From Sedimenticola sp. (lineage in GTDB: Bacteria > Pseudomonadota > Gammaproteobacteria > Chromatiales > Chromatiaceae): a stretch of DNA of 22,119 bases. This document shows, in pieces, positions 3,275 to 22,110 of this stretch; the stretch's first letter is position 1; each line of letters begins with the position of its first letter. A program made the position numbers and the translations under genes. The notes beneath the pieces were generated by a model. That model did no database searches and was not told where the DNA came from. It worked only from the letters and a program-made list of their open reading frames with translations. The stretch covers positions 1-22,119 of the forward strand of contig JALULB010000282.1 in NCBI GenBank assembly GCA_027041035.1, in the 5' to 3' direction.

Positions 3275-5062
3275 TTATTCTCCTGGGTGTGGGTTGGCGT
3301 GTTCGGTGTCGTGCCGCCAGGCATAGGCGGCCTCGGTCAGGTTTCCGGGCGGATGCACGATGATGTTGTCGCACAGCTGACGCAGCAGGCTGAAGCCCCG
3401 GCCGCAGAACAGCTCGGCATTGTCATGGCAGACCCTGTCGGTCGCTTGCTCCAGGATCTTCGGATCGAAGCCGGCGCCGCTGTCGCTTATCTGGATATTC
3501 AACTGACCGCCGTCCATGCTCGGTTGATGGTTCAGCGAGATATCGACCCAGCCGTCGGCCAGTGCCGCCAATCGCTCGGCGCGCAATCGGTAGTACTCGG
3601 AAAAGCCTTCGGAGCTGCGTTTCATCGCGCTGTCGAGTCCGAGCACGCCGTGGTCCAGCGCATTCGAGAACAGCTCGGCGAGTATCGTGAAGAGACGCTC
3701 GCGATGGTTGTACAAACCCTGTACGTCCATCACCAGTTGGGTGACTACCGGACGCGGATCGAAATCGCGCAGGGCTTCCGCGTTCAGGTGCATGTCGATG
3801 TGCCATTCGGTGCTGACCTGCCGACGCGAGCCCGCGCCAATCCGCAGACGCTGGGATATGCGATGTTCCAGGCCGGGGTTGCATACGTATTCCAGCAACG
3901 TGACATCATCGTTCTGCGCATGGCCGGCGCGGAAGGTTTCCAGGTTCGTCATCACGCGATCGAATATCCCGTCCGGATCGGCATGCTCGCCAATACTCTG
4001 CTTCAGGCGCCCGATACCGAACATCTCGCCGCTCGCGTTCTCGGCCTCGGTCACGCCATCGGTCAGCATGTACAGGCGGTCGCCGGGTTCCAGCGCGAGC
4101 ATGTCGAAGCTGCGCTCGAAGAGTTCGTCGCCGCCGATGCCCAGCGGCAGATGGCGCGCGGCGATGTGCTCGATAGATCCGCTGCCGAAGCGCCGGATCA
4201 GGATGTCCGGCACGCCGCCGGCCCAGACCATCGCCGAGCCGGTGCGCGCCGAGATCTCTATCCCGGCGGCGACCAGAAACATGCCGGTCGGCATCAGCGA
4301 GTGCAGGCGTCGATTGATCTCCGCCATGATGTCGACGATGCCGAAGCCCTTCGCCGCCATCGCATGGAATATCTCCGAGGTCGGCAGACTGCCGATGGAG
4401 GCGCCCAGGCCATGGCCGGTGAAATCGCCGAGCAGGATCTGCAGATCACCATTCGGGGTGCGCGCGCCCAGCAACAGGTCACCGTTGAACACCGCCATCG
4501 GCGAGATGCTGTAGCGGATGTTCTCGGCATCCAGTTCGTCACGCTTCATCACCGCGCGAAAGATCGATGTCGCCACCTCCTGCTCGCGCGCGACCATATC
4601 CTCATAGCGCGACAACTGCTTTTCCTGCTCGATCAGGCGCCGGGCGCGTTCGCGATTGCGCAACAAGGCATGGATGCGTGCCATCAGAATGGTTTCGTTG
4701 ATCGGAAAGGTGATGAAATCATCACCACCGGAATCCAGGCAGGTCGCCAACGAGGCATCATCGGTCAGCGAGGTCACGAACATCACCGGTATCACCGTCT
4801 GACCGGCGCCTTGCTTGATGCGGCGCACCGCCTCGTAGCCGTTCATCAACGGCATGTTGATGTCCATCAGCACGATATCCGGATGCGCCACGGCAACCGC
4901 TTCGACTGCCTCGTGACCGTTGCGCGCCGTCGCGACCCGGTAGCCGTGATCCTTCAGAATGGTCTTCAGGATCTGCCGGTTGGTCTTGCTGTCATCGACG
5001 ACCAACACCTTTGGGCTAGTTTTGTCGAGAGGGTACTGGATGATGTTTTCCGCGGTTTGCAC
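3275..5062 (-). CDS. Response regulator with PP2C (SpoIIE/RsbU) phosphatase and HATPase (RsbW-like) domains
   Basis: This is a 595-residue partner-switching regulator. Residues ~17-135 are a receiver domain with acidic pocket Asp23/Asp24 and phosphoacceptor Asp67 (LMDINMP). A coiled linker of about 135-165 follows. Residues ~185-395 are a PP2C phosphatase with metal-binding acids in NGDLL (195), LGDFTGHG (213), LTDGVTEA (335) and NDDVTL (385-386). Residues ~425-585 are a GHKL ATPase with N-box ELFSNALDHG (463-472), DSGAGFD (527-533) and GRGFSLL. Kinase and phosphatase on one chain would set the phosphorylation of the adjacent STAS protein, as in Pseudomonas HsbR. The receiver is odd: the nearly invariant lysine before Pro is Phe119 (FITFPIN). 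The start is GTG with AGGAG 6 nt upstream. It lies 69 bp after the small receptor gene, so the chemosensory CheA or a phosphotransfer protein is a plausible phosphodonor. Confidence 0.9.
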   Translation of the reverse strand: MQTAENIIQYPLDKTSPKVLVVDDSKTNRQILKTILKDHGYRVATARNGHEAVEAVAVAHPDIVLMDINMPLMNGYEAVRRIKQGAGQTVIPVMFVTSLTDDASLATCLDSGGDDFITFPINETILMARIHALLRNRERARRLIEQEKQLSRYEDMVAREQEVATSIFRAVMKRDELDAENIRYSISPMAVFNGDLLLGARTPNGDLQILLGDFTGHGLGASIGSLPTSEIFHAMAAKGFGIVDIMAEINRRLHSLMPTGMFLVAAGIEISARTGSAMVWAGGVPDILIRRFGSGSIEHIAARHLPLGIGGDELFERSFDMLALEPGDRLYMLTDGVTEAENASGEMFGIGRLKQSIGEHADPDGIFDRVMTNLETFRAGHAQNDDVTLLEYVCNPGLEHRISQRLRIGAGSRRQVSTEWHIDMHLNAEALRDFDPRPVVTQLVMDVQGLYNHRERLFTILAELFSNALDHGVLGLDSAMKRSSEGFSEYYRLRAERLAALADGWVDISLNHQPSMDGGQLNIQISDSGAGFDPKILEQATDRVCHDNAELFCGRGFSLLRQLCDNIIVHPPGNLTEAAYAWRHDTEHANPHPGE

Positions 5063-5131: not shown

Positions 5132-6325
5132 TCAGAAAAGTTCGATATCGCCTTCCGAGAGATCGTTCTGCGCGACCGGCCGGGACAATGCCGCGCGCGC
5201 TTCGGTCCAGCTGTTCGTCAGCGCCTCGACATACCGCTGCCCCGCCATCTCGCCGTCCGGATCACGCTGCGCGGCCACCCATTCCGATAGCAGCTCGCGA
5301 TAACGGTTGTTCCCTTCGCCGGCTATCCTCACCTGCCCGTCCGCATAGCTGACCAGTTGGGTGACCAGGTCCTCGAATTGCAGCGAGCGCACCGCGTCGC
5401 CGACCGAGCCATCGATGGCCTCGCTGAGCCGGGCGACGGAAGACAGGCTGGTTTCCAGCTTGCTATTGAAGGCGGCGATCTGCTCGATCATGTCGTCCAC
5501 CCGCGCCTTCGAGCGAATGGCGAAATTCATATCCTTGGAGGCCAGCTTGCGCACCGCTTCCCTGGCGTTCTCGATATAGGTTTTCGAGTCTCCGAGCGCG
5601 GTGCGGATCTCTTCACTGAAGCGGCTGGAACGCTGCGACAGGTTGCGCACCTCGTCGGCGACCACGGCAAACCCCCTGCCCGCCTCGCCGGCGCGCGCCG
5701 CCTCGATCGCCGCGTTCAACGCCAGCAGATTGGTCTGGTCAGCGATCTGGTTCATGTCGTTGAGCAGGGATTCCGCGGACGCCAGCCGCTCGACGACATC
5801 GTCGATATGCTCGACCATGCCCATGCTCTCGGCGCTGGTGTTGACGATGTGGTCGACAAAATAGCGCAGCACGCCGTCGGTTTCCTCGGCAAACTGGCTG
5901 AAGGAGATGCGCTCGTCGCCCTCGCCCATCGCGTCCATGATCGACATCACCACGTCCTGCTGCTCGCGGGTCTGCTCATGCAGATTGTTGAAGCTGGATT
6001 GCAGCGAGACCACGGAGTCCGATACCAGCTCGTTGATCTGACCGAGACTGGCATGGATGTCGGTGTTCGCGTTGTTCAGCTCGTCGACATGAACCTCGCC
6101 CAAACGGGCGATCTCATCCAACGAGCGATAGCGCTCCCGCGTCTGCTCCTGAGGCACCTGCCCGGCGGGCCGCCGGGCGAGCAGACCGATGGCAATCGAC
6201 ATGAAGACGAAAAAGGCCGCCAACACGCCAACATCGACGCCATTATTCCAGGCAAACATCAGAACGCCGACACCCGCGACGAACAGTATGAGGATGGCTC
6301 TACGATTGCTGGGACTTCCGCTCAC
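5132..6325 (-). CDS. Methyl-accepting chemotaxis protein without a periplasmic domain, with CheZ-like C-terminal motif
   Basis: This is a 397-residue receptor. Two membrane segments (about 9-26 and 33-50) are joined by only a few residues, so it has no extracellular sensor domain. The cytoplasmic part carries the conserved hairpin tip (about 190-235; [33 protein letters not shown]) that contacts CheA and CheW. After the signalling helices comes LQFEDLVTQ, with Asp319 and Gln323 spaced like the CheZ catalytic pair. The protein ends GDIELF, a tail shared with CheD and the CheZ-like protein of this locus. There is no NWETF-type CheR tether. The start is GTG at 6325 with GGAAG upstream; the nearby ATG runs straight into a stop. 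It lies 72 bp after cheB. It likely senses membrane or cytoplasmic state, or relays from other receptors. Confidence 0.92.
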
Positions 6326-6397
6326 TTCATGCTTCCAGTTGAACTGACACTACCCTGGCTATCGGCTCACAACCCGGAAACTGAAACGCAAACACGC

Positions 6398-7471
6398 TCA
6401 CGTCCGTGTCTTCAGCACGCCCAGCAGATGGTCGGCCAGCTTGTCCAGACTGACCACGTCGTCGGCGAAGCCCCGCTTGACCACCGCGCCGGGCATGCCC
6501 CAGACCACGCTGGAACGTTCGTCCTGCACGATGATCGGCGCGCCGGCTGCTTTCATCTCGCCCATCGCGTCGGCGCCATCCGCGCCCATGCCGGTCAACA
6601 TGATGCCGATCGCGTTCTTGCCGACATTCCGCGCCAGGGACTGGCACATCACCTCGACCGAAGGCTTGTGGCGGTTGACCGGATCGCCATCGTCCAAACG
6701 ACAGATATAACGGGCGCCGTTGCGTTCGACACGCAGATGCCGGTCACCGGGCGCGATGTATGCATGCCCGGGCAGGATCTGCTGGCCGTCGCTGGCCTCG
6801 GCGACCACCAACGCGGATTCCTTGTCGACGCGCGCCGCGAACGGCCGGCTGAACGCCGCCGGGATATGCTGCGAGATGACGATCCCCGGCGTATCCGGCG
6901 GCAAGCGACTCAGCACCGCCCTGACCGCCTCGGTGCCACCCGTGGACGAACCGATGCCGATGACCGTGTCGGTGGTTTTGATGTTCAACGCACCACCGCG
7001 CGACGCCGCGCCGCCGGCAACCGACACATCGCTGCCGACCACCTTTTTGGCGGTACCCAGGTCGATCGCGCTGACCCTGGCAACCGCGGCCGCGCGTACC
7101 TTCTCCAGCAGCTCCTCGGTATATGCCGACAGGGCCGCGCGCACGTCGATCTTCGGTTTGGTGACGAAATCCACCGCGCCCAGCTCCAGGGCGCGAAAGG
7201 TGACATCGGCGCCCTTCTCGGTGAGCGTGGAAACCATCACTACCGGCATAGGCCGCAGGCGCATCAGATTGCTCAGAAAGGTAACGCCGTCCATGCGCGG
7301 CATCTCGACATCCAGGGTCAAGACATCCGGATTCAACTGCTTGATCTTCTCGCGCGCGTCGAAGGGATCCTGCGCCACGCCGACCACCTGAATATCCGGT
7401 GCCTGCTCCAGTATCTTCGTCAATACCTGGCGCACCAGCGCGGAATCATCGATTATCAGTACCTTGATCAT
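6398..7471 (-). CDS. cheB: Chemotaxis response regulator, protein-glutamate methylesterase/deamidase CheB
   Basis: This is a 357-residue methylesterase that demethylates, and may deamidate, receptor glutamates when phosphorylated by CheA. The receiver domain (1-~110) has Asp8/Asp9 in the acidic pocket, phosphoacceptor Asp54 (TLDVEMPRMDG) and Lys105. The esterase domain has the catalytic triad Ser176 (GSSTGGTEA), His202 (SQHIP) and Asp298 (TGMGADGA). The length is normal. The start ATG at 7471 is preceded by AGGA. It follows cheD after a 134-bp gap, one of the larger gaps in the operon, and precedes the small receptor gene by 72 bp. Confidence 0.97.
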   Translation of the reverse strand: MIKVLIIDDSALVRQVLTKILEQAPDIQVVGVAQDPFDAREKIKQLNPDVLTLDVEMPRMDGVTFLSNLMRLRPMPVVMVSTLTEKGADVTFRALELGAVDFVTKPKIDVRAALSAYTEELLEKVRAAAVARVSAIDLGTAKKVVGSDVSVAGGAASRGGALNIKTTDTVIGIGSSTGGTEAVRAVLSRLPPDTPGIVISQHIPAAFSRPFAARVDKESALVVAEASDGQQILPGHAYIAPGDRHLRVERNGARYICRLDDGDPVNRHKPSVEVMCQSLARNVGKNAIGIMLTGMGADGADAMGEMKAAGAPIIVQDERSSVVWGMPGAVVKRGFADDVVSLDKLADHLLGVLKTRT

Positions 7472-7605
7472 GCCATCATCCTGTCAACTTGGAAATGTTA
7501 TACCTGAGCGCGCCGATCGCGTATCCGCGATTACGCGCAACTGAAGAAGCGTGCTTGTGGAAGCGACAGGCAAGCGAGTATGTGCGTATTTCATGATTTT
7601 CCGGC
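7472..7605 (-). other. cheD-cheB intergenic region with small hairpin
   Basis: This 134-bp spacer holds a perfect 6-bp stem with a 4-nt loop: ATCGCG (7516-7521) and CGCGAT (7526-7531). No T-run follows on either strand and no clear promoter was found. It may be an mRNA stability element, or simply spacer. Confidence 0.3.
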
Positions 7606-8247
7606 TTAAAACAATTCAACGCTGCCCTGAACCGGCTTCTGTTCGATCTGCGACTTGTACTCCTGCTCACGCTGGACGACCGTGTCGTTGTGCAGATGTT
7701 TGAGTTTCTTGACACGCGCGACGCCCGTGCTGGGTATGAAGATGACCTTTCGCGGATAGATATCGCCGACATCCTCGGCCAGCAGATCGAGTCCTTCCGC
7801 GCGCAGATACTCATGCACGAATTCGATATTGCGATCACCGATGCTGGTCATCTTCTCTATCATGCGGCCACCACCGAATACCTTGACCTCGAGGTTCTCC
7901 TTGCGACCACCGAGCTTGAGTATCTCGTTGATCATGTGTTCCATGGCAAAGTTACCGAAACGGGTCGCGTTGCTCAGCACATCGGCGCCCAGCGAAACCG
8001 TGTCCTCGGCGCCTATCGGCAGCATGAAATGGTTCATGCCACCGATGCCGAAGACGCGATCCCGAACGCACGCCGACACGCAGGAACCCAACACCGTGGT
8101 GATCAGCTCCTCCTTGACGGTGACATAGTATTCGCCCGGCAGGATCTTCGCCGCCGGCATCTCGTGGCTGGTATCCCAGTAGCGCGAGATGTGCTCGAAC
8201 CCGCGTGTCGGCGGCGGCAGGTTCTTGTGTCTTTTTCTGAACGGCAT
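7606..8247 (-). CDS. cheD: Chemoreceptor glutamine deamidase CheD
   Basis: This is a 213-residue CheD, which deamidates receptor glutamines to glutamates before methylation. The catalytic Cys56 (TVLGSCVSAC) and His73 (GGMNHF) are 17 residues apart, the same spacing as in the Thermotoga enzyme. The first ~30 residues extend beyond the core and the C-terminus adds ~25 residues that end GSVELF. That tail resembles the ends of the small receptor and the CheZ-like protein here. The ATG at 8247 lies 10 nt after the cheR stop, with GAGG overlapping that stop, which points to coupled translation. Confidence 0.95.
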   Translation of the reverse strand: MPFRKRHKNLPPPTRGFEHISRYWDTSHEMPAAKILPGEYYVTVKEELITTVLGSCVSACVRDRVFGIGGMNHFMLPIGAEDTVSLGADVLSNATRFGNFAMEHMINEILKLGGRKENLEVKVFGGGRMIEKMTSIGDRNIEFVHEYLRAEGLDLLAEDVGDIYPRKVIFIPSTGVARVKKLKHLHNDTVVQREQEYKSQIEQKPVQGSVELF

Positions 8248-8257
8248 GACGACAGCC

Positions 8258-9100
8258 TCAACGTATCTTGCGATAGACGGTATTTCCCAGCGATTCGAAA
8301 CGCTCGCTGACCTTGTACAACGATTCCGAATGGCCGATCACCAGGTATCCGCCCGGCGCCAGCGCGTCGGCATAACGATCGGCCAGGCGTTGCTTGGTTT
8401 CCTTGTCGAAGTAGATGATCACGTTACGGCAGAAGATCACATCCTGCGGCGGCATGCGCCAATCGCTCATCAGGTTCAGTTGGGAAAACTCGATGAGCCT
8501 CTTCAACTCGTCCTTGACCCGTACCTTGCCGCTGTTCGCGCCGGAACCCTTCAAAAACCATTTCTTCTTGCGCTCGGTGGAGATGCCCTCGACCCGCGCC
8601 AGATCGTAGACGCCGGCACGGGCGGTCGCGAGCACGTTGGAATCCAGATCGGTCGCTTTCAGATTCACCTTGGCGCGTGTCGGCAAGCCAACTTCGAGCA
8701 GGGTCATCGCGAGTGAATACGGCTCCTCTCCGGTGGAGCATCCGGACGACCAGATATTGAACTCGCGCCCACCACGCTGGAGAAACTCGGGCACGATGTT
8801 TTTCGCCAATAACTCGAAATGATGGTTCTCGCGAAAGAAGGCCGTCAGGTTCGTGGTGATCGCATTGATCAGGTGGCGTTCTTCCTCCTCGTCGCCGGAG
8901 CGGATCAGCGCGCAGTATTCGGCGAAACTGCCGAGCCTCAACTGGCGCACGCGACGCGACAGGCGCGAATAGAACATGTCGAACTTGTCGTCGTCGACGA
9001 CGATGCCGGTCTTCGCCCGGGTCAGGGTGCGCAGGAAGTCGAAGTCCTGTTGCGTGAACGGGAACTCGCGCGCGCGTTCTTCTGCCATTGCCTGCGCCAT
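8258..9100 (-). CDS. cheR: Chemotaxis protein methyltransferase CheR
   Basis: This is a 280-residue S-adenosylmethionine-dependent enzyme that methylates receptor glutamates for adaptation. It has the N-terminal helical domain (about 12-85) followed by the Rossmann domain with SSGCSTGEEPYSLAM, the SAM-binding block, and ILF/IFCRNVIIYFD further on. The length is usual for the family. Its ATG overlaps the stop of the CheZ-like gene by one base (TGATG). Neither receptor in this locus ends in the NWETF-like pentapeptide, so if CheR is tethered it must use another contact. Confidence 0.97.
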   Translation of the reverse strand: MAQAMAEERAREFPFTQQDFDFLRTLTRAKTGIVVDDDKFDMFYSRLSRRVRQLRLGSFAEYCALIRSGDEEEERHLINAITTNLTAFFRENHHFELLAKNIVPEFLQRGGREFNIWSSGCSTGEEPYSLAMTLLEVGLPTRAKVNLKATDLDSNVLATARAGVYDLARVEGISTERKKKWFLKGSGANSGKVRVKDELKRLIEFSQLNLMSDWRMPPQDVIFCRNVIIYFDKETKQRLADRYADALAPGGYLVIGHSESLYKVSERFESLGNTVYRKIR

Positions 9101-9660
9101 CAGAACAACTCTATCTCGTCGCCGAGATCCGCCATGGTATCGTGCACCTCGGCGAGCGCTTCATCGATGCTCTTGCCGGCAAGCACGGCGTCGAACATCT
9201 TCTGTTCCTCGCGCATGCTGTAGCGCGAACGGATGCGGTCCTGCAATTCACGCCACGCGTAGGGATTGAACAGACGACCATCGTCGGATACCAGCCCACC
9301 GAGTGAATCCAGCATGTCGCTGACGTGTCCGAGACGCTGGCTGAGCTTGTCGTAGAACTGAAAGGCGACCACGCTCTGACCCATCTGCATCGCGACGCCA
9401 TGACAGAGATGTAGAATCCGCTCTTTCAATGGGTCGTCGTCGATCTCCGCGCCCTCGACCAGGGACTGTATCTCGCCGACATTGTTCATCATGCCGGCGA
9501 AGCTCTCGGTCAGGGTATTCACCGAATCATTGCCGTCATGCATTGCAATCTCGACCTGAGCCACCGCGACATTCAGCATGCGCACTGTTTCCTTCACCTG
9601 ACTCCAGTCGAGATCGGGTTTGTCCGCGACCGAAGTCATCTCCTTTGCTGGGTTATTCAT
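9100..9660 (-). CDS. CheZ-like protein, probable CheY-P phosphatase
   Basis: This is a mostly helical protein of 186 residues and I do not recognise an exact family name. Residues ~22-115 look like a long amphipathic helix pair. FQFYDKLSQRL at 100-110 places Asp104 and Gln108 four apart, as with Asp143 and Gln147 of E. coli CheZ, where the aspartate and glutamine contact the CheY-phosphate site. It ends GDEIELF, an acidic-hydrophobic tail recalling the C-terminal CheY-binding helix of CheZ. No CheC, CheX or classical CheZ is in the window, so this is the best candidate for signal termination. The start ATG at 9660 has TAGGAGA upstream. A longer reading to 9759 would overlap the STAS gene and lacks a site. 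It is coupled to cheR by a TGATG overlap. Confidence 0.75.
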   Translation of the reverse strand: MNNPAKEMTSVADKPDLDWSQVKETVRMLNVAVAQVEIAMHDGNDSVNTLTESFAGMMNNVGEIQSLVEGAEIDDDPLKERILHLCHGVAMQMGQSVVAFQFYDKLSQRLGHVSDMLDSLGGLVSDDGRLFNPYAWRELQDRIRSRYSMREEQKMFDAVLAGKSIDEALAEVHDTMADLGDEIELF

Positions 9661-15265: not shown

Positions 15266-17365
15266 TTAGGCTGAACGCGGCAGGCGGAAATCGTCCTGGC
15301 GGGCTCCGCTGAGGCGGATCACGCCGGTGATGTCGAGAATCAGGGCGACGGATCCGTCGCCGAGTATGGTCGCGCCGGAAACGCCTTCGACATTGCCGTA
15401 GTTCTCTTCCAGCGATTTGATCACCACCTGGTGCTGGCCGAGCAGGTCGTCGACGAACAAGCCACACTTGCGTCCCTCGGCCTCGACGATGACCAGCAGG
15501 CCCTCGGTGAGCTCCTCGACGTGCTCGGCGGAGACATCGAACACCTCGTGCATGCGCACGATCGGCAGGTATTCGTCGCGTAGCTTGAAGGCCTCGCCCT
15601 TGCCGCCGACCAGGTTGATCATCTCCGGACGCACCTGGATGGACTCGATGATGGATACCAGCGGCACGATGTAGGTTTCGTCGCCGACGCGCACCACCTG
15701 GCCATCGAGTATCGCCAGCGTCAGCGGCAGGCGGATGACGATGCTGGTGCCAACCCCCAGTTCCGACTCGATCTCGATGCTGCCGCCGAGCTCGTTGATG
15801 TTCTTGCGCACCACGTCCATGCCGACACCACGCCCGGACACGTCGCTGATCTGCTCGGCGGTGGAGAAGCCGGCCATGAAGATCAGTTCGTATTTCTGCT
15901 GCTGGGTGAGTACATCGTCTTCCTTCAGCAGTCCCTTGCTGACCGCCTTGTTGAACAGGAAGTCACCATCCAGGCCCTTGCCGTCGTCCTTGATCTCGAT
16001 GACGATGTTGCCGCCCTTGTGGTAGGCATTCAGCACCACCGTGCCGGTCTCCGGCTTGCCGGCCGCCGCGCGGACCTCGGGCAGTTCGATACCGTGATCC
16101 AGGCTGTTGCGCACCAGATGCACCAGCGGATCGCCGATCTTCTCGATGACGGTCTTGTCCACCTCGGTGCTCTCGCCAATCATCTTCAGCTCGATCTTTT
16201 TGTTCAGCTTGCTGGAGAGATCGCGCACCAGCCGCGGGAAGCGGCTGAAGGTGAAGCTGATCGGCATCATGCGCACCTGCATGACGCTTTCCTGCAATTC
16301 GCGCGTATGGCGTTCCAACTGGGCCAGACCCTCCAGCAGCTTCGGCACGTCCTGCATGTCGAAGTCCTCGCCGAGCATGCTCAGCATGGACTGGGTGATG
16401 ACCAGTTCGCCGACCATGTTGATCAGGCTGTCGATCTTGGGTACGTCGACACGGATGGAACCCGCGCTGGTGTTCGCCGCCGGCTTGGACGGCTTGCGTC
16501 GGTCGACGCCTGCACGCCGCTCGGGAGGAGGATCGGCCAGCTTCAGATCGGGCTTGCTCTCGGCGGCCGGGGCTGGCGCCGGCGAGGGCGCTTCACTTGC
16601 CGCCGGAGTCGCCTCGGCTGGCGCGCTTTCGTCGTGGATTTCCATGATCGCCAGATCGCAGTCGTCCTCGACCCAGTCGAAGATCTCCTGTACCTGGTAC
16701 TTGTCCACGGCTTCATGCAGGTGGATATCCCACGAAAGACAGGCATCCTCGGGCTCGTATTCGTGAAACTCGGGTATCCCGCCGATATCGCAGCTGACGC
16801 TGGTGTCGCCCAGGTCGCGAAACTCTTTCAGCAAGCGCAGCGGATCGTTACCGGTACGCATCAGGTGCGCATGCGGCCTGAATACCACGTGCCAGCCGAT
16901 CACCGGCGCCGACGTGGCCTCGGAGACGGTCTCGCTTTCACCATCACTCACGGCGGCTGGCGCCTCCTGGCCTGGACGGCTGTCGAGTACGCGCTTCAGT
17001 TCCGCGCTCTGTGTGTCGACGTTCGCCTGATCGACCTCGCCACCATCCTGCGCGGCGGTCAGCATGTCGCGCAGCACGTCGACCGATTTCAGCAACACAT
17101 CCACCGCGTCGGTGGTGATCTCGCGGCGACCGTCGCGCATCTCGTCCAGCAGGGTCTCCATGGTATGCGTGAAACCGGAGATGTCGGCGAAACCAAAGGT
17201 TCCCGCGCCCCCCTTGATGGAGTGCGCGGCGCGAAAGATGGCGTTGATCTGCTCCGAATCCACCGCGCCCGGATCCATGTCCAGCAGACCGCTCTCCATG
17301 ATGTCCAGGCCCTCGAAACTCTCCTCGAAGAACACCTGATGAAACTGAGCCATGTCGATGCTCAT
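15266..17365 (-). CDS. cheA: Chemotaxis sensor histidine kinase CheA
   Basis: This is a 699-residue CheA with the five classical domains. P1 (1-~110) has phosphorylated His48 in AAHSIKGGAG. A P2-like CheY/CheB docking domain (about 155-243) starts GWHVVFRPHAHLMRTGNDPLR. A Pro/Ala-rich linker follows (~250-300). P3 is the dimerisation hairpin (~305-370). P4 (~372-550) has N-box HLVRNSLDHG (Asn420), DDGKGLD, FMAGFSTA and GRGVGMD. P5 (~555-699) is the CheW-like regulatory domain. All kinase motifs look intact. It lies 49 bp downstream of cheY and 10 bp upstream of cheW. It would phosphorylate CheY and CheB, and possibly the REC-PP2C-HATPase regulator at the operon's end. Confidence 0.98.
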   Translation of the reverse strand: MSIDMAQFHQVFFEESFEGLDIMESGLLDMDPGAVDSEQINAIFRAAHSIKGGAGTFGFADISGFTHTMETLLDEMRDGRREITTDAVDVLLKSVDVLRDMLTAAQDGGEVDQANVDTQSAELKRVLDSRPGQEAPAAVSDGESETVSEATSAPVIGWHVVFRPHAHLMRTGNDPLRLLKEFRDLGDTSVSCDIGGIPEFHEYEPEDACLSWDIHLHEAVDKYQVQEIFDWVEDDCDLAIMEIHDESAPAEATPAASEAPSPAPAPAAESKPDLKLADPPPERRAGVDRRKPSKPAANTSAGSIRVDVPKIDSLINMVGELVITQSMLSMLGEDFDMQDVPKLLEGLAQLERHTRELQESVMQVRMMPISFTFSRFPRLVRDLSSKLNKKIELKMIGESTEVDKTVIEKIGDPLVHLVRNSLDHGIELPEVRAAAGKPETGTVVLNAYHKGGNIVIEIKDDGKGLDGDFLFNKAVSKGLLKEDDVLTQQQKYELIFMAGFSTAEQISDVSGRGVGMDVVRKNINELGGSIEIESELGVGTSIVIRLPLTLAILDGQVVRVGDETYIVPLVSIIESIQVRPEMINLVGGKGEAFKLRDEYLPIVRMHEVFDVSAEHVEELTEGLLVIVEAEGRKCGLFVDDLLGQHQVVIKSLEENYGNVEGVSGATILGDGSVALILDITGVIRLSGARQDDFRLPRSA

Positions 17366-17414: not shown

Positions 17415-17777
17415 TCAACCGAGTACTTTCTTGACCGTGCCGAGCAGCTGGTCCGGGTTGAACGGCTTGACGATCCAGCCAGTGGCGCCGGCCGCCTTGC
17501 CCTGCTGCTTCTTTTCGGCGCTGGACTCGGTGGTCAGCATCAGCAATGGCGTGAACTTGTAACTCGGCAGGTTGCGCAGCTCGCGGATCAACGAGATGCC
17601 ATCCATGTTCGGCATGTTCACATCGGTAATCACCAGGTTGACGGATTTGTCGCGCGCGATATTCAATGCTTCCACGCCATCCGCGGCTTCGATCACGTCG
17701 TAGCCGGCGCCTTTCAGCGTGAAGGAAACCATCTGCCGCATGGATGCGGAATCGTCGACAGCAAGAATACTGGCCAT
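17415..17777 (-). CDS. cheY: Chemotaxis response regulator CheY
   Basis: This is a 120-residue stand-alone receiver. It has acidic pocket Asp8/Asp9 (AVDDSASMR), phosphoacceptor Asp52 (VITDVNMPNMDG), the Thr/Ser switch in LTTESS and Lys104 (IVKPF). The ATG at 17777 has GGGAG upstream and gives the normal CheY length. An in-frame extension to 17801 (MAGRGRK...) reads through the ribosome binding site and is rejected. It is the first gene of the minus-strand chemosensory operon. It lacks a DNA-binding output domain, so it acts by protein contact, on a motor or another target. Confidence 0.96.
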   Translation of the reverse strand: MASILAVDDSASMRQMVSFTLKGAGYDVIEAADGVEALNIARDKSVNLVITDVNMPNMDGISLIRELRNLPSYKFTPLLMLTTESSAEKKQQGKAAGATGWIVKPFNPDQLLGTVKKVLG

Positions 17778-17867
17778 GCTTTTTCTCCCTCTCCCGGCCA
17801 CGGCCGGAAACTGTTTGGATTCAATTCAGCGCATACCGACCAGAACCGTCGGTTGCTTACGGCATGG

Positions 17868-17996: not shown

Positions 17997-18068
17997 TCTA
18001 CTCCTTGCGCTTCATCACAAAATTCCCCACGATAGGTGACCGTTTATGCATCGCAGTATTTCAGCAGT

Positions 18069-19025
18069 ATGACTCCCAAGGCTCTCGATTCCGTTCGACA
18101 ACACATCTCCTCCCGTATCATCGGCCAACAGAACCTGATCGACAGCATGTTGATCTGCCTGCTCAGCGACGGCCACATGCTCGTCGAAGGCATGCCCGGC
18201 CTGGCCAAGACGACCGCGGTGAACGCGCTGTCCGAGGCCATCGAGGGGGATTTTCACCGTATCCAGTTCACCCCCGACCTGTTGCCATCCGACCTGATCG
18301 GCACCGATATCTACCGGCAGGAAAAGGGCGAGTTCGAGTTCAGCCCCGGCCCGCTGTTTCACAACATCCTGCTCGCCGACGAGGTGAACCGCGCGCCGGC
18401 GAAGGTACAGTCCGCGCTCCTGGAAGCGATGGCGGAACGGCATATCACCGTCGGCCAGAAAACCTATCCGCTGGCGCGCCTGTTCATGGTGCTGGCGACC
18501 CAGAACCCGGTGGAGCAGGAAGGCACCTACCGTCTGCCGGAGGCCCAGCTCGACCGTTTTCTGATGCAGGTCGAGGTGGATTACCCGAACCACGAGGAAG
18601 AACTCCAGATCCTGGAGCTGGACAACGCCCAGCAGGGCAAGAGCCCGCCAGAGGCGAAAGACCCGCTGCCCGAGCACGTATTGTTCGAGATCCGCGACAA
18701 CGTCAGCGAGCTGTTTCTCGACCCGAAGCTGAACCGTTACATCGTCGACCTGGTACAGGCCACGCGCAACCCGCAGGCCTATGACAAGGAACTCAGCAAC
18801 TGGTCGCGTCTCGGCGCCTCGCCGCGCGCTTCCATCGCGCTGGCGCGCTGCGCCCGCGCCCGTGCCTGGCTGGATGGCGAGGACTATGTCTCGCCGGAAC
18901 ACATTCAGCGCGTCGCCACCGACATCCTGCGCCACCGCTTGATCCTGACCTTCGAGGCCGAAGCGGAAGGCGTCACCGCCGAGGACTTCATCCAGCGACT
19001 GCTGTCGCTGGTCGCCATTCCCTGA
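18069..19025 (+). CDS. moxR: MoxR-family AAA+ ATPase
   Basis: This is a 318-residue MoxR-type AAA+ protein. It has Walker A GMPGLAKTT (41-49), Walker B LLADEVNRAP (101-110) and sensor-1 LATQNPVEQEGTYRLPEAQLDRF (about 142-164). MoxR proteins act as chaperone-like ATPases, usually together with VWA proteins, in metal insertion, protein complex maturation or stress tolerance. It opens a plus-strand operon with DUF58, DUF4381 and two VWA proteins, the usual companion set. The start is uncertain. The ATG at 18069 gives the family-like N-terminus, while an in-frame GTG at 18036 would add 11 residues; neither has a strong ribosome binding site. The next gene starts 9 bp after its stop. Confidence 0.92.
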   Translation: MTPKALDSVRQHISSRIIGQQNLIDSMLICLLSDGHMLVEGMPGLAKTTAVNALSEAIEGDFHRIQFTPDLLPSDLIGTDIYRQEKGEFEFSPGPLFHNILLADEVNRAPAKVQSALLEAMAERHITVGQKTYPLARLFMVLATQNPVEQEGTYRLPEAQLDRFLMQVEVDYPNHEEELQILELDNAQQGKSPPEAKDPLPEHVLFEIRDNVSELFLDPKLNRYIVDLVQATRNPQAYDKELSNWSRLGASPRASIALARCARARAWLDGEDYVSPEHIQRVATDILRHRLILTFEAEAEGVTAEDFIQRLLSLVAIP

Positions 19026-19033
19026 GCAGGATC

Positions 19034-19948
19034 ATGCATCCTTATCCGCATCTTCAGGAACTGGTCGAGCTGCGCCGTTACGCGCGCAGCCTCGGCATGC
19101 CATCACAGCAGCTCGTCAGCTCCAGCCTCAGCGGTCTGTATGCCTCGGTGTTTCGCGGCCAGGGACTGAACTTCGAGGAAGTACGCGAGTATCGCGAGGG
19201 CGACGACATCCGCAACATGGACTGGAAGGTCACCGCGCGCACCGGCAAGCCGCATCTGAAGGTCTTCCAGGAGGAACGTGAACGCACCGTGGTACTGTGC
19301 GTGGACAAAGGCGCGCACATGCATTTCGGCACGCGCAAGGTGTTCAAGTCGGTACAGGCGGCGCGCGCCGCGGCACTGCTCGGCTGGGCGGCCAACAGCC
19401 AGCACGACCGCGTCGGCGGCATGCTGTTCGGTGGCGACAAGAACGAATATTTCCGCCCGAGCAAAGACCGGCGCGCCATCTGGCGACTGCTGCGCCAGCT
19501 CAGTGATCCGGTCACCGACAACAGCAGCCACGACGGCCTGCTGGCCGATGCCCTGCGTCAGGCCCAGCGCGGCGCCGGCACCGGCGGCCTGGTATTCATC
19601 ATCGCCGACTTCAATCACGACATGCCGGACCTGGAGCATCACCTGCTGCAACTGCGCGACATCCACTCGGTCGTGCTGATCCCGATCGACGACCCGGCCG
19701 ACGAGCGCCTGCCCGACATGGGGCAGGTGCTGTTCCGCGACCCCTCCGGCGAGATCATCGAGGTCGATACCGGCAACGCCAAGGCGCGCGAGAACTATGC
19801 GCGAAGCTGGCGCGGGCGGCGCGCCGAACTGCAACGCCTGGCCAGCCGGCTGCGCATCGCATTGATCCCGATCCGCACCGACGACGACGTCCACCTGGTA
19901 CTGATGAAGGGCCTGGAGAAGCGCGCCCGGCAGAAGGCATTCCAGTGA
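19034..19948 (+). CDS. DUF58 protein of the MoxR/VWA cluster
   Basis: This is a 304-residue DUF58 protein. Its hallmark block, GLNFEEVREYREGDDIRNMDW, is at about 44-64, followed by KVTARTGKPHLKVFQEER. A VWA-like fold is plausible after it (VVLCVDKGAHM, GLVFIIADFNHD), but the first metal-site motif is not standard. No membrane segment was seen. DUF58 proteins sit next to MoxR and VWA proteins in many genomes and their molecular role is not settled. It is 9 bp after moxR and overlaps the DUF4381 gene by 4 bp (GTGA). Confidence 0.92.
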   Translation: MHPYPHLQELVELRRYARSLGMPSQQLVSSSLSGLYASVFRGQGLNFEEVREYREGDDIRNMDWKVTARTGKPHLKVFQEERERTVVLCVDKGAHMHFGTRKVFKSVQAARAAALLGWAANSQHDRVGGMLFGGDKNEYFRPSKDRRAIWRLLRQLSDPVTDNSSHDGLLADALRQAQRGAGTGGLVFIIADFNHDMPDLEHHLLQLRDIHSVVLIPIDDPADERLPDMGQVLFRDPSGEIIEVDTGNAKARENYARSWRGRRAELQRLASRLRIALIPIRTDDDVHLVLMKGLEKRARQKAFQ

Positions 19949-20466
19949 AGCATGACGCCCTGCTCGCCCGCTTGCGCGATATTCACGGCCTGGACCCGAT
20001 CGGCGCCTGGCCGCCCGGCATCGGCTGGTGGCTGCTGGCCGCCGGCATCCTGCTGCTGGCGGCACTGCTGTTCTGGCTGATCCGAGACCTGTACCGCTAC
20101 CCCTGGGGCAGTTGGCGGCGCGACGCCCGCGACCGCCTGGTGGCGCTGCGCCGCCGCCTGGCCCGGCAACCCGCTCGCGGCAGCGCCGAACAGCTCTCCG
20201 AACTGATGCGCCGCATCGCGATGGCGCGTTTCAAGCGCGACGATTGTGCCAGCCTCAGCGGCGATGCCTGGCTTGACTGGCTGGAACAGCACGATCCGAT
20301 CGGCTTTCCATGGGCTACCCATGCCAAGCTGCTCACCCGCCTGCCCTATGCGCCGGACGACGGCAAGGAGGGCGACGAAGCCGGCAAGCGCGCGACCCTG
20401 CGCCTGCTGATCGACGCCGGCCTGCGCTGGACCGCCGGCAAGCCGCGGAAGTCCGGCCATGTTTGA
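19945..20466 (+). CDS. DUF4381 membrane protein of the MoxR/VWA cluster
   Basis: This is a 173-residue protein with one membrane segment (about 27-47; WWLLAAGILLLAALLFWLI), followed by a basic cytoplasmic stretch and a helical C-terminal domain (about 70-140; LSELMRRIAMARFKRDDCASL). The pattern GDAWLDWLEQHD is typical of the DUF4381 family found between DUF58 and VWA genes. The start is GTG at 19945, overlapping the DUF58 stop. Its end overlaps the next VWA gene by 8 bp, so translation is coupled. Its biochemical role is unknown; a membrane anchor for the MoxR-VWA complex is likely. Confidence 0.85.
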   Translation: MKHDALLARLRDIHGLDPIGAWPPGIGWWLLAAGILLLAALLFWLIRDLYRYPWGSWRRDARDRLVALRRRLARQPARGSAEQLSELMRRIAMARFKRDDCASLSGDAWLDWLEQHDPIGFPWATHAKLLTRLPYAPDDGKEGDEAGKRATLRLLIDAGLRWTAGKPRKSGHV

Positions 20467-21490
20467 GTTCCATTGGCCGTGGATGGCGCTGCTGCTGGGC
20501 CTGCCGTTGCTCGCTCGCCTCGGGCTGAAGAGCAGCGAAACCGCCGCCCAGGAGCAACAGGAGCATCGCACCACCCTGCTGCACCCGAATCTGGAACAGC
20601 TTGCCAGCGCCTTCCACGGGCATCGACCGAAGACCCCGCTGGGACGCAAGCTGTACGCCGGGCTGCTGATCACCCTGTGGGCGGGCCTGACGCTGGCCGC
20701 GATGCGGCCACAGTGGATGGAGCCATACACCGAGACGCGTATCGAGGGCTACGACCTGATGCTGGCGGTGGACGCCTCGCATTCGATGGAAGCACTGGAT
20801 TTCAGCGCCAACGGCAAGCCGATCAGCCGCATGCAGGTGGTCAAGGGCGTCATGCGGAAATTCATCGAAGGGCGCGAGAACGACCGCCTCGGCCTGATCA
20901 TCTTCGGTAACCAAGCGTACGTGCTGTCGCCGCTGACGCTGGACCGCGATGCCGTCATCACCCTGCTAAACGATCTGTCCGCGCGCATCGCCGGCGACGG
21001 CACCGCGATGGGCGACGCCATCGGCCTCGGCGTGAAGAAGCTGCGCGAACGTCCGAAAGGCTCGCGCGTGCTGGTGCTGATCGCCGACGGCAACAGCAAC
21101 GCCGGTCTGATTCCACCGCTGGATGCCGCGCGCCTCGCGGCCAGCGCCGGTATCCGCATCTACGCGATCGGCGTCGGCAGCAATCAGAAGGACGTGCCCA
21201 TCATGGAGAACGGCAAACTCATCACGCGCAACGACCTGGTCTTCGACGAAGCGGTGCTGAAACGCATCGCGGAACAGACCCGTGGCGCCTATTTCCGCGC
21301 CACTGACACCCAGGCACTGGAACACATCTACAAGCGCATCGACGAACTGGAGAAAAGCCAGGCGGACGCACGCACCCTGCTGATTCCTCACCCCCTGTTC
21401 CGCTGGCCGCTCGCGGTCGCGCTGCTGGCGCTGCTGGTGCTCGGCTTGTTCCCGAATGCCCGTCCGCGCGGCTTGCGGAGCGAGCCATGA
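20459..21490 (+). CDS. batA: VWA-domain membrane protein, BatA-like
   Basis: This is a 343-residue protein with an N-terminal hydrophobic stretch (~6-22), a second membrane segment (~65-82), a VWA domain (~98-300) and a C-terminal membrane helix (~314-333). The MIDAS metal site is complete: DASHS (105-109), Thr182 (GDGTAMGD) and Asp210 (IADGNSNAG). The VWA face would bind a divalent metal and a partner protein, and MoxR is the usual candidate. BatA-type proteins are linked to stress tolerance and envelope functions. The start ATG at 20459 overlaps DUF4381, and the stop overlaps the next VWA gene (ATGA). Confidence 0.9.
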   Translation: MFEFHWPWMALLLGLPLLARLGLKSSETAAQEQQEHRTTLLHPNLEQLASAFHGHRPKTPLGRKLYAGLLITLWAGLTLAAMRPQWMEPYTETRIEGYDLMLAVDASHSMEALDFSANGKPISRMQVVKGVMRKFIEGRENDRLGLIIFGNQAYVLSPLTLDRDAVITLLNDLSARIAGDGTAMGDAIGLGVKKLRERPKGSRVLVLIADGNSNAGLIPPLDAARLAASAGIRIYAIGVGSNQKDVPIMENGKLITRNDLVFDEAVLKRIAEQTRGAYFRATDTQALEHIYKRIDELEKSQADARTLLIPHPLFRWPLAVALLALLVLGLFPNARPRGLRSEP

Positions 21491-22110
21491 GCGATCCCGC
21501 CAGCATACTCGCCCAACCCGCCTGGCTGTGGGGGCTGCTGCTCATCCCCGCCGTGCTGTTGTGGCGCCACTATACCCGGCCGCGACGCCAGATCGGCAAG
21601 GAACAGCGATATGCCGACGCCCACCTGCTGACCTGGCTGCTGGGCACCCAGGACAGCGACGCGGACAACGCCTGGAAGTCGCGTCTCGCGTGGTCCCTGG
21701 CCTGGGCCTTGCTGTTGCTGGCGATGGCTGGTCCACGCTGGGGCTATGAGCAGATCAGCCCGTTCAGACCCGAAGCGGAACTCGTCGTGCTGCTCGACAT
21801 CTCGCGCTCGATGGATATCAACGATGTCAGCCCATCGCGTCTCGGCCGGGCAAAACAGGAGATCGAGGACATCGCCGCGCGCGGCGCGGGTATCGCCATC
21901 GGCTTGATCGCCTTCGCCACGACACCCCATGTGGTGACGCCGATCACCGAGGATCACGCGGCGGTATTGCACCAGCTCCCCGCCCTATCGAGCGACTTGG
22001 TGCGCCTGAAAGGCAGCCGTATCGTGCCGGCGCTGGAACGCGCGGAACAGTTACTCGGCCAGCGCCGGCACGATACGGCTGCCTTTCAGGCGCACCAAGT
22101 CGCTCGATAG
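21487..22110 (+). CDS. batB: VWA-domain membrane protein, BatB-like; 3' end truncated or artefactual
   Basis: This is the N-terminal part of a BatB-like protein. A membrane segment lies at ~11-27 and another at ~65-82. The VWA domain starts at ~98 with the first MIDAS motif DISRS (104-108) and the family block DINDVSPSRLGRAKQEIEDI. Residues up to about 190 read like the family (GSRIVPALERAEQLL). From 22059 on, the DNA is the exact reverse complement of 21976-22036, so the last ~16 residues and the stop at 22108-22110 are probably not real. The later MIDAS residues and the C-terminal membrane helix or TPR part expected in this family are missing. The start overlaps the batA-like stop (ATGA). 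Confidence 0.8.
   Translation: MSDPASILAQPAWLWGLLLIPAVLLWRHYTRPRRQIGKEQRYADAHLLTWLLGTQDSDADNAWKSRLAWSLAWALLLLAMAGPRWGYEQISPFRPEAELVVLLDISRSMDINDVSPSRLGRAKQEIEDIAARGAGIAIGLIAFATTPHVVTPITEDHAAVLHQLPALSSDLVRLKGSRIVPALERAEQLLGQRRHDTAAFQAHQVAR

Follow-up and report, generated by a model that had tools for sequence, protein, structure and literature searches.

A C-terminal E-L-F tail shared by three chemosensory proteins of an F7-like gene cluster, with CheY as its candidate docking partner

The stretch analyzed here is the 22,119-nucleotide contig JALULB010000282.1 of a Sedimenticola sp. metagenome-assembled genome (MAG; GCA_027041035.1), hereafter called the window. Its minus strand carries a chemosensory gene cluster encoding, in order, CheY, CheA, CheW, a PAS-HAMP-MCP-CZB receptor, a second CheW, a ParA-like ATPase, a STAS protein, a CheZ-like protein (CheZL), CheR, CheD, CheB, a small McpA-like receptor (sMCP), a REC-SpoIIE-HATPase protein, and a second STAS protein. 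The F7 "stage 1" set, as given in PMC7184735, comprises an anti-sigma antagonist, cheY, cheA, two cheW-like genes and an aer2-like receptor gene, followed by cheR, cheD, cheB, an mcpA-like receptor gene, an anti-sigma antagonist, and a serine phosphatase. This set and its order were largely matched by the window cluster, except that the STAS genes are placed differently, that ParA and CheZL are extra, and that the PAS-HAMP-MCP-CZB receptor, which has no C-terminal peptide of the x-W-E-x-F type (W-tail), stands where "stage 1" has Aer2. Judged from gene set and order, the window cluster is largely F7 "stage 1"-like.

We focused on the extreme C-terminus of three proteins of this cluster, namely sMCP (...SEGDIELF), CheD (...QGSVELF), and CheZL (...LGDEIELF), all encoded on the minus strand (Table 1). 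The original prediction, that these three share an E-L-F tail, was borne out, as all end in [IV]ELF. In CheD, the NCBIfam PRK13487 match reaches the last model position (201/201). Across the 2.26-Mb MAG, which is 62.7% complete, the genome-wide count returned six [IVM]E[LF]F-stop sites, of which three lie in the window, compared with four in the reversed control. The occurrence of the tail on these three proteins is more than chance. In another contig of the same genome, a receptor (L176:330-1850) ends TEIDLF. An NWETF-type peptide had been thought missing. This is so for the cluster but not for the genome, since a receptor encoded on another contig (G000:C270, locus L177:1-3153) ends DDEWEEF, and a CheR-type pentapeptide is therefore present in this genome.

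Table 1. Coordinates in the window of the tailed proteins, of the proposed and alternative partners of the tail, and of other cluster genes.
Feature	Position	Strand	Evidence
Small McpA-like receptor (sMCP)	5132..6325	-	MCPsignal E=3.1e-28; tail GDIELF
sMCP tail codons G-D-I-E-L-F	5135..5152	-	Sequence; family consensus PVxQxSMxEGEVELF
sMCP QFEDLVTQ, CheZ-type DxxxQ motif (D319, Q323)	5357..5380	-	Alignment
CheD	7606..8247	-	PF03975 E=6.8e-30; tail GSVELF
CheD tail codons G-S-V-E-L-F	7609..7626	-	Sequence
CheZ-like protein (CheZL)	about 9100..9660	-	Tail DEIELF; homologues
CheZL tail codons D-E-I-E-L-F	9103..9120	-	Sequence
CheZL QFYDKLSQ, CheZ-type signature (with A102; F105, D107, Q111)	9337..9360	-	Alignment
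F7-type CheY, proposed tail receptor	17415..17801	-	Best PDB match 4h60 "Chemotaxis protein CheY", E=9.5e-42
CheR, rival partner, long pentapeptide-type loop KGSGANSGKVRV kept	8258..9100	-	Alignment to 1af7/1bc5
CheB, rival partner	6398..7471	-	CheB_methylest, Response_reg
CheA	15266..17365	-	Hpt, H-kinase_dim, HATPase_c, CheW domains
REC-SpoIIE-HATPase protein (CrsR-like)	3275..5062	-	Response_reg, SpoIIE, HATPase_c_2
ParA-like ATPase	10855-10088	-	Inside cluster

The tail is conserved in all three families. Searches scored 743 homologues at E<=0.001 for CheZL, 7,999 for CheD, and 7,996 for sMCP; among the best 120 listed per search, to which the homologue counts given here refer, a C-terminal ELF was found in 109/120, 118/120, and 116/120, respectively (6 of the 120 sMCP homologues being 99-100% identical to the window sMCP). 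We also gathered 118 CheD loci (the window plus 17 plus 100). The CheD tail, variants included, was present in 108 of them under a pattern that tolerates T/S/A at -3, F/M/W variants, and an extension of up to three residues; the ten loci without a match are L082, L091, L108, L112, L114, L119, L128, L129, L130, and L131. Outside the gammaproteobacterial class, in a search of the phylum, CheD carried the tail in 11/11 loci of one family (L180, L182-L184, L186-L189, L191, L193, L194). Genome-wide, [DE][IVM][DE][LF]F-stop, a pattern that also takes TGG, a false stop, was matched in 98/114 CheD-positive gammaproteobacterial genomes (CheD match at E<=1e-20) vs 95/255 CheD-negative ones (Fisher p=3.5e-19), with 297 and 139 matches, respectively. 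At position -3, the tails of CheD and sMCP mostly seem to agree in E/D (E/E 29, D/D 6, T/T 1, D/E or E/D 7, E/F 1, uncorrected for relatedness). Collectively, the conservation across the CheZL, CheD, and sMCP families strongly supports the notion of a shared docking peptide, and it is very likely that the tails of these and the other carriers described below have a common partner.

Two of the three proteins carry a CheZ-type motif. The CheZ signature consists of AXXFQ followed by DXXXQ (PMC7750401). CheZL has DxxxQ beside AxxFQ, with Y replacing the Q of the latter; in its AFQFYDKLSQ, A102, F105, D107, and Q111 were invariant in 40/40 aligned rows, and the whole motif was invariant except for K and S. 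In sMCP, the corresponding SLQFEDxVxQ showed D319 and Q323 invariant in 30/30 aligned rows. QFxDxxxQ was found in 120/120 listed CheZL homologues and in 119/120 for sMCP. The catalytic D is separated from the C-terminus by 80-87 residues in CheZL, by 72-114 (median 81) in sMCP, and by 71 in E. coli CheZ. An AlphaFold2 (AF2) model of CheZL predicts a helical hairpin (H22-73/H79-128) with DxxxQ in the second long helix, and its last five residues (185-189) are disordered, with a predicted local distance difference test (pLDDT) score below 50. By analogy, the CheZL tail would sit much like the CheY-binding end of CheZ. The C-terminal CheY-binding peptide of E. coli CheZ (199-214) is likewise preceded by a linker and a DxxxQ-bearing helical hairpin, and it is acidic-hydrophobic and ends in Phe. 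It differs from the tail in its sequence, and the tail is also found on CheD, the receptor, and GGDEF proteins.

The tail turned out to be on the three proteins originally singled out, but not to be limited to them: in relatives, it also ends GGDEF proteins, further receptors, and small proteins of the CheZ-like kind. In 12 CheD-positive genomes (98-100% complete), [DE][IVM][DE][LF]F-stop gave 35 matches, with none in three of these genomes. Thirty of the 35 were inspected: 22 lie in frames of at least 100 aa, 5 in frames of at most 56 aa, and 3 were false stops. All 22 in the longer frames belong to CheD (6), receptors (12), a DxxxQ protein (1), or GGDEF proteins (3). Twenty further genome sites were hand-picked from among the listed pattern matches, and 15 of these are in frames of at least 186 aa, that is, 4 CheZ-like proteins (QFYDxxxQ), 10 receptors (MCP motif), and 1 protein with QYEDMASQ only (L221); the others are a 73-aa protein and 4 frames of at most 21 aa. 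Tailed proteins inspected were thus nearly all chemosensory or GGDEF proteins. The tailed GGDEF proteins correspond to three genes in two genomes (L058, L132, L158); the one in L058, the same gene as in L137, lies just upstream of cheY and encodes a Pfam GGDEF domain (1e-36) and no REC, and the one in L158 lies near a second CheD. A second family of small CheZ-like proteins (L119, L124), with the tail and QFHDM[SA][ST]Q, is encoded just before cheY, and a tailed 207-aa DxxxQ protein was found at L134. Scans of loci and genomes showed that further receptors in relatives also carry the tail.

Several minor observations concern these carriers. Tailed CheZ-like proteins with QFYD[RK][LM][ST]Q occur in L205, L212, L219, and L220, beyond the stretches taken around CheD there. 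The 73-aa frame (L204), with one membrane helix by reading, ends DEGDIELF and may represent a minimal client or anchor in the membrane. Cluster GGDEF-like genes of L188 and L191, from a different class of the same phylum, end VDSELFE and DHQAEIF, perhaps degenerate tails. Tailed open reading frames from the locus scan in L039 and L111 look like chance, and we rejected them as clients.

We then compared the tail with the type of CheY encoded nearby. Among 156 loci examined, 98 had a scored CheY, which we called F7-type when it had K/R95, G98, and W106. Under a strict rule (CheD ending [IVLMA][ED][LFM][FW] plus at most three residues), the CheD tail was present in 80/91 loci with an F7-type CheY vs 2/7 of the other loci (p=0.001). 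Each of the 11 loci missed by this rule has either a variant tail or another client that is tailed. With a loosened definition written after inspecting these misses (variants, any client), the figures were 91/91 vs 2/7 (p=3e-7). The two tailed exceptions are L022, with a distant CheY-like regulator only, and L172, whose CheY has R95, K99, and W106, but A98. The tail-less loci L129, L190, L197, and L201 have an E. coli-type CheY (I95/A99/Y106) and have kept CheR, CheB, and CheD, and a W-tail receptor is encoded in three of them.

The F7 CheYs differ from the E. coli protein on one face. We aligned 71 of them, after dropping 5 divergent sequences of 76, and numbered residues on the E. coli CheY sequence. 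K95, G98, T104, W106, P113, and L116 were invariant, residue 99 was K/R in 69, and the window CheY has K95/G98/K99/W106. F7 CheY thus carries Lys and Trp where E. coli CheY, the partner of CheZ, has Ile95, Ala99, and Tyr106, and its alpha4-beta5-alpha5 face appears, by alignment, to be unusual, basic, and conserved. We take 4h60, the best PDB match of the window CheY, to be V. cholerae CheY4, and cluster III of that species, which encodes CheY4, to be its F7 cluster. According to PMC3774744, CheY4 does not bind FliM and its cluster has no cheZ, so that the F7 CheY face seems to be conserved for another purpose.

CheY residue 99 appears to track the acid of the tail, loosely. It is Q where tails have no acid at -3 (L125 ITFF, L163 IYFFD, L165 VYFLD, L130 VQFF), and K99 is kept in L112 (sMCP IDFF) and L167 (VEFF, VEFW, and one LTFF). 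L112, L114, L125, L130, and L162-L167 are divergent CheD systems or genes with client tails such as ITFF, VVFF, and IYFF, and their receptors, where seen, have DDFERF/EGFQRY-like ends (WEQF in L130).

From these patterns we infer CheY as the partner, as well as the binding face, the dependence on phosphorylation, and the role of each client. The C-terminal [DE]-[I/V]-[E/D]-L-F would be a short docking peptide read by F7 CheY, probably in its phosphorylated form (CheY-P) and through the alpha4-beta5-alpha5 face, and it would mark those proteins that are clients of the F7 CheY. Both CheZL and sMCP, the latter through its DxxxQ motif, would dock CheY-P to dephosphorylate it, as CheZ does with its C-terminal peptide. 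Docking of CheD would make receptor deamidation follow the CheY-P level. In Bacillus, CheC-CheD-CheY-P feedback links CheD activity to CheY-P; CheD activity would be tied to CheY-P here too, with the difference that CheD would dock directly via its own tail. A scan of ten proteins of the cluster gave no CheC match. The output that docks would, in some relatives, be a GGDEF protein.

The original prediction had left the partner as either CheY or the receptor array. We favor CheY on indirect evidence, namely the CheZ signature and geometry, the co-occurrence with F7-type CheY, the conserved basic face, the residue-99 pattern, and the tail on three GGDEF proteins, and the sequence evidence makes F7 CheY the most likely docking partner, with a probability of about 0.57. 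We also considered a wider picture, in which CheY-P forms a hub and a [DE][IV][ED]LF terminus suffices to make a protein its client. These clients would be a CheZ-type phosphatase, a flagellar F6-array receptor with a phosphatase of its own, a deamidase, and a diguanylate cyclase; the client set would evolve via tail gain and loss, the code would shift with CheY residue 99, and it would have been lost once F7 turned to flagellar CheY. That all of this holds jointly is a tentative proposal.

A possibility was that the tail represents an aliphatic form of the pentapeptide that tethers CheR or CheB, and that it binds the beta-subdomain of the cluster CheR, or CheB. Like NWETF/GWEEF, the tail is C-terminal and acidic, with Glu at position 3 and Phe at position 5, and the register is identical (x-W-E-x-F vs x-[IV]-E-L-F). 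In Cycloclasticus (L017, L019), E changes to D jointly in the W-tail, CheD, and sMCP. The window CheR loop KGSGANSGKVRV keeps G188, G190, and R197 (R197 after PMC5907407), and a review proposed E-W/V-E-X-F as a possible V. cholerae CheR3 site (PMC11940527). However, the tail has Ile/Val rather than an aromatic residue at position 2, Leu/Phe at position 4, and non-receptor carriers, and a CheR tether makes little sense for CheZL or a GGDEF protein. In the CheR/CheB-binding pentapeptide, both position 2 and position 5 must be aromatic (PMC7390727); the tail has Phe at position 5 and I/V at position 2, which by sequence argues that it is not this pentapeptide. A Val form was reported without CheR binding: McpA of P. 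aeruginosa, in which position 2 is Val, reportedly interacts with none of four CheRs (PMC7184735, citing its ref. 31). The GxG of the CheR site was kept in most tailed loci (103/138), but it was missing in the other 35/138 and kept in 10/12 tail-less loci, so that the CheR site does not predict the tail. The sole partner modeled was CheB, and in a CheD-CheB read-through fusion (AF2) residues 200-224, including the tail, had pLDDT below 50, that is, the tail was disordered and not docked. This is a weak negative from a single fusion model with no CheD-alone control. Overall, we consider a CheR/CheB tether unlikely.

We find rather improbable that the tail tethers CheD, CheZL, and the others to the receptor array via CheA, CheW, or another receptor. 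Such a tether would suit the chemosensory or GGDEF character of nearly all carriers, and E. coli CheZ does localize through CheA binding (PMC7750401). Yet sMCP is itself a receptor, and the Shewanella McpA counterpart clusters with F6 CheA3, independently of F7 CheA1/CheW1 (PMC9855816); a tailed DxxxQ receptor there could therefore draw F7 CheY-P to the F6 array. Moreover, L129, L190, and L197 have kept CheA and CheW, and lack the tail though CheR, CheB, and W-tail receptors persist. These observations, together with that on P. aeruginosa McpA, speak against the array part of the original prediction. That the minor components of the system share the tail as a signal for proteolysis or assembly seems very improbable: it is short, hydrophobic, and at the extreme C-terminus, and client stoichiometry might need control, but its presence follows CheY type, and an acidic -3 position in loose agreement with CheY residue 99 is unexpected for a degron.

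A number of points weigh against CheY as the partner of the tail. CheZL did not match Pfam CheZ in the window scan (E<=0.01), nor was this family among the 25 of 89 families listed for CheZL at E<=10 or among the matches listed for the L119/L124 proteins. Foldseek with CheZL against PDB gave nothing at E<=0.001 and no CheZ among the 50 rows listed, and the CheZL profile searched against PDB sequences reached E=0.07 at best, with coiled-coil noise. CheD is no phosphatase, yet it is tailed, and so are receptors without DxxxQ by regular expression or reading (L143, L154, L208, L210, L213, L215, L217, L218) and one without QFxDxxxQ (L176). CheD and CheZL do not agree at -3 (E/E 12, D/E 3, E/D 2), and a paired-column search at 15 pairs with CheD E/D(-3) switches, in which CheY, CheA, and CheW offered no usable column, found no convincing partner column. 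K99 occurs despite non-acidic tails in L114 (VVFF/VSFL) and L063 (VTLF), and Q99 despite an acidic tail in L092/L097 (VELF plus two residues). On a CheB+CheR tree of 148 loci, built without named reference systems, the tail label needs at least six changes (12 tail-less loci, 5 with CheY). The tail-less loci with CheY are one nearest-neighbor group plus L131, and tail loss with CheY change thus amounts to only about two independent events. Finally, CheA may be the user of the basic CheY face, and the authors of PMC3774744 expected that an ordinary CheZ would not interact well with V. cholerae CheY4.

The window sMCP looks like an F7 McpA-like receptor, for which a conserved C-terminus was reported in PMC7184735; we did not find there a mention of the DxxxQ motif or of tails in common with CheD, CheZ-like, and GGDEF proteins. 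The same paper calls it unclear what the conserved McpA tail does and what stage 1-2 F7 systems are for. Our search of open-licence PMC papers, without supplements, returned no report of a tail shared by CheD and CheZ-like proteins. Thus, the receptor tail is already in print, and its sharing across CheD, CheZ-like, and GGDEF proteins is apparently new. If true, a shared docking tail would offer candidates both for the role of the McpA tail and stage 1-2 F7 systems and for the partners of a CheY4 without FliM binding or cheZ: CheZL and sMCP as phosphatases, CheD as a feedback enzyme, and the GGDEF protein as an output. Further clients could then be sought in any genome by a simple sequence rule, and the idea is testable with five-residue peptides.

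Regarding the rest of the window, the CrsR-like REC-SpoIIE-HATPase protein is the probable output of the cluster. The gene of a STAS protein (about 3300-2973, minus strand) follows its own (5062-3275), and the pair resembles Shewanella CrsR/CrsA, an RpoS partner switch, as a likely cluster output; the Shewanella che1 locus encodes CrsR/CrsA acting on RpoS (PMC9855816). On the plus strand, positions 18036-22110 hold an operon whose first product, by reading, looks like an AAA ATPase of the MoxR type; putative DUF58- and VWA-like proteins come after it.

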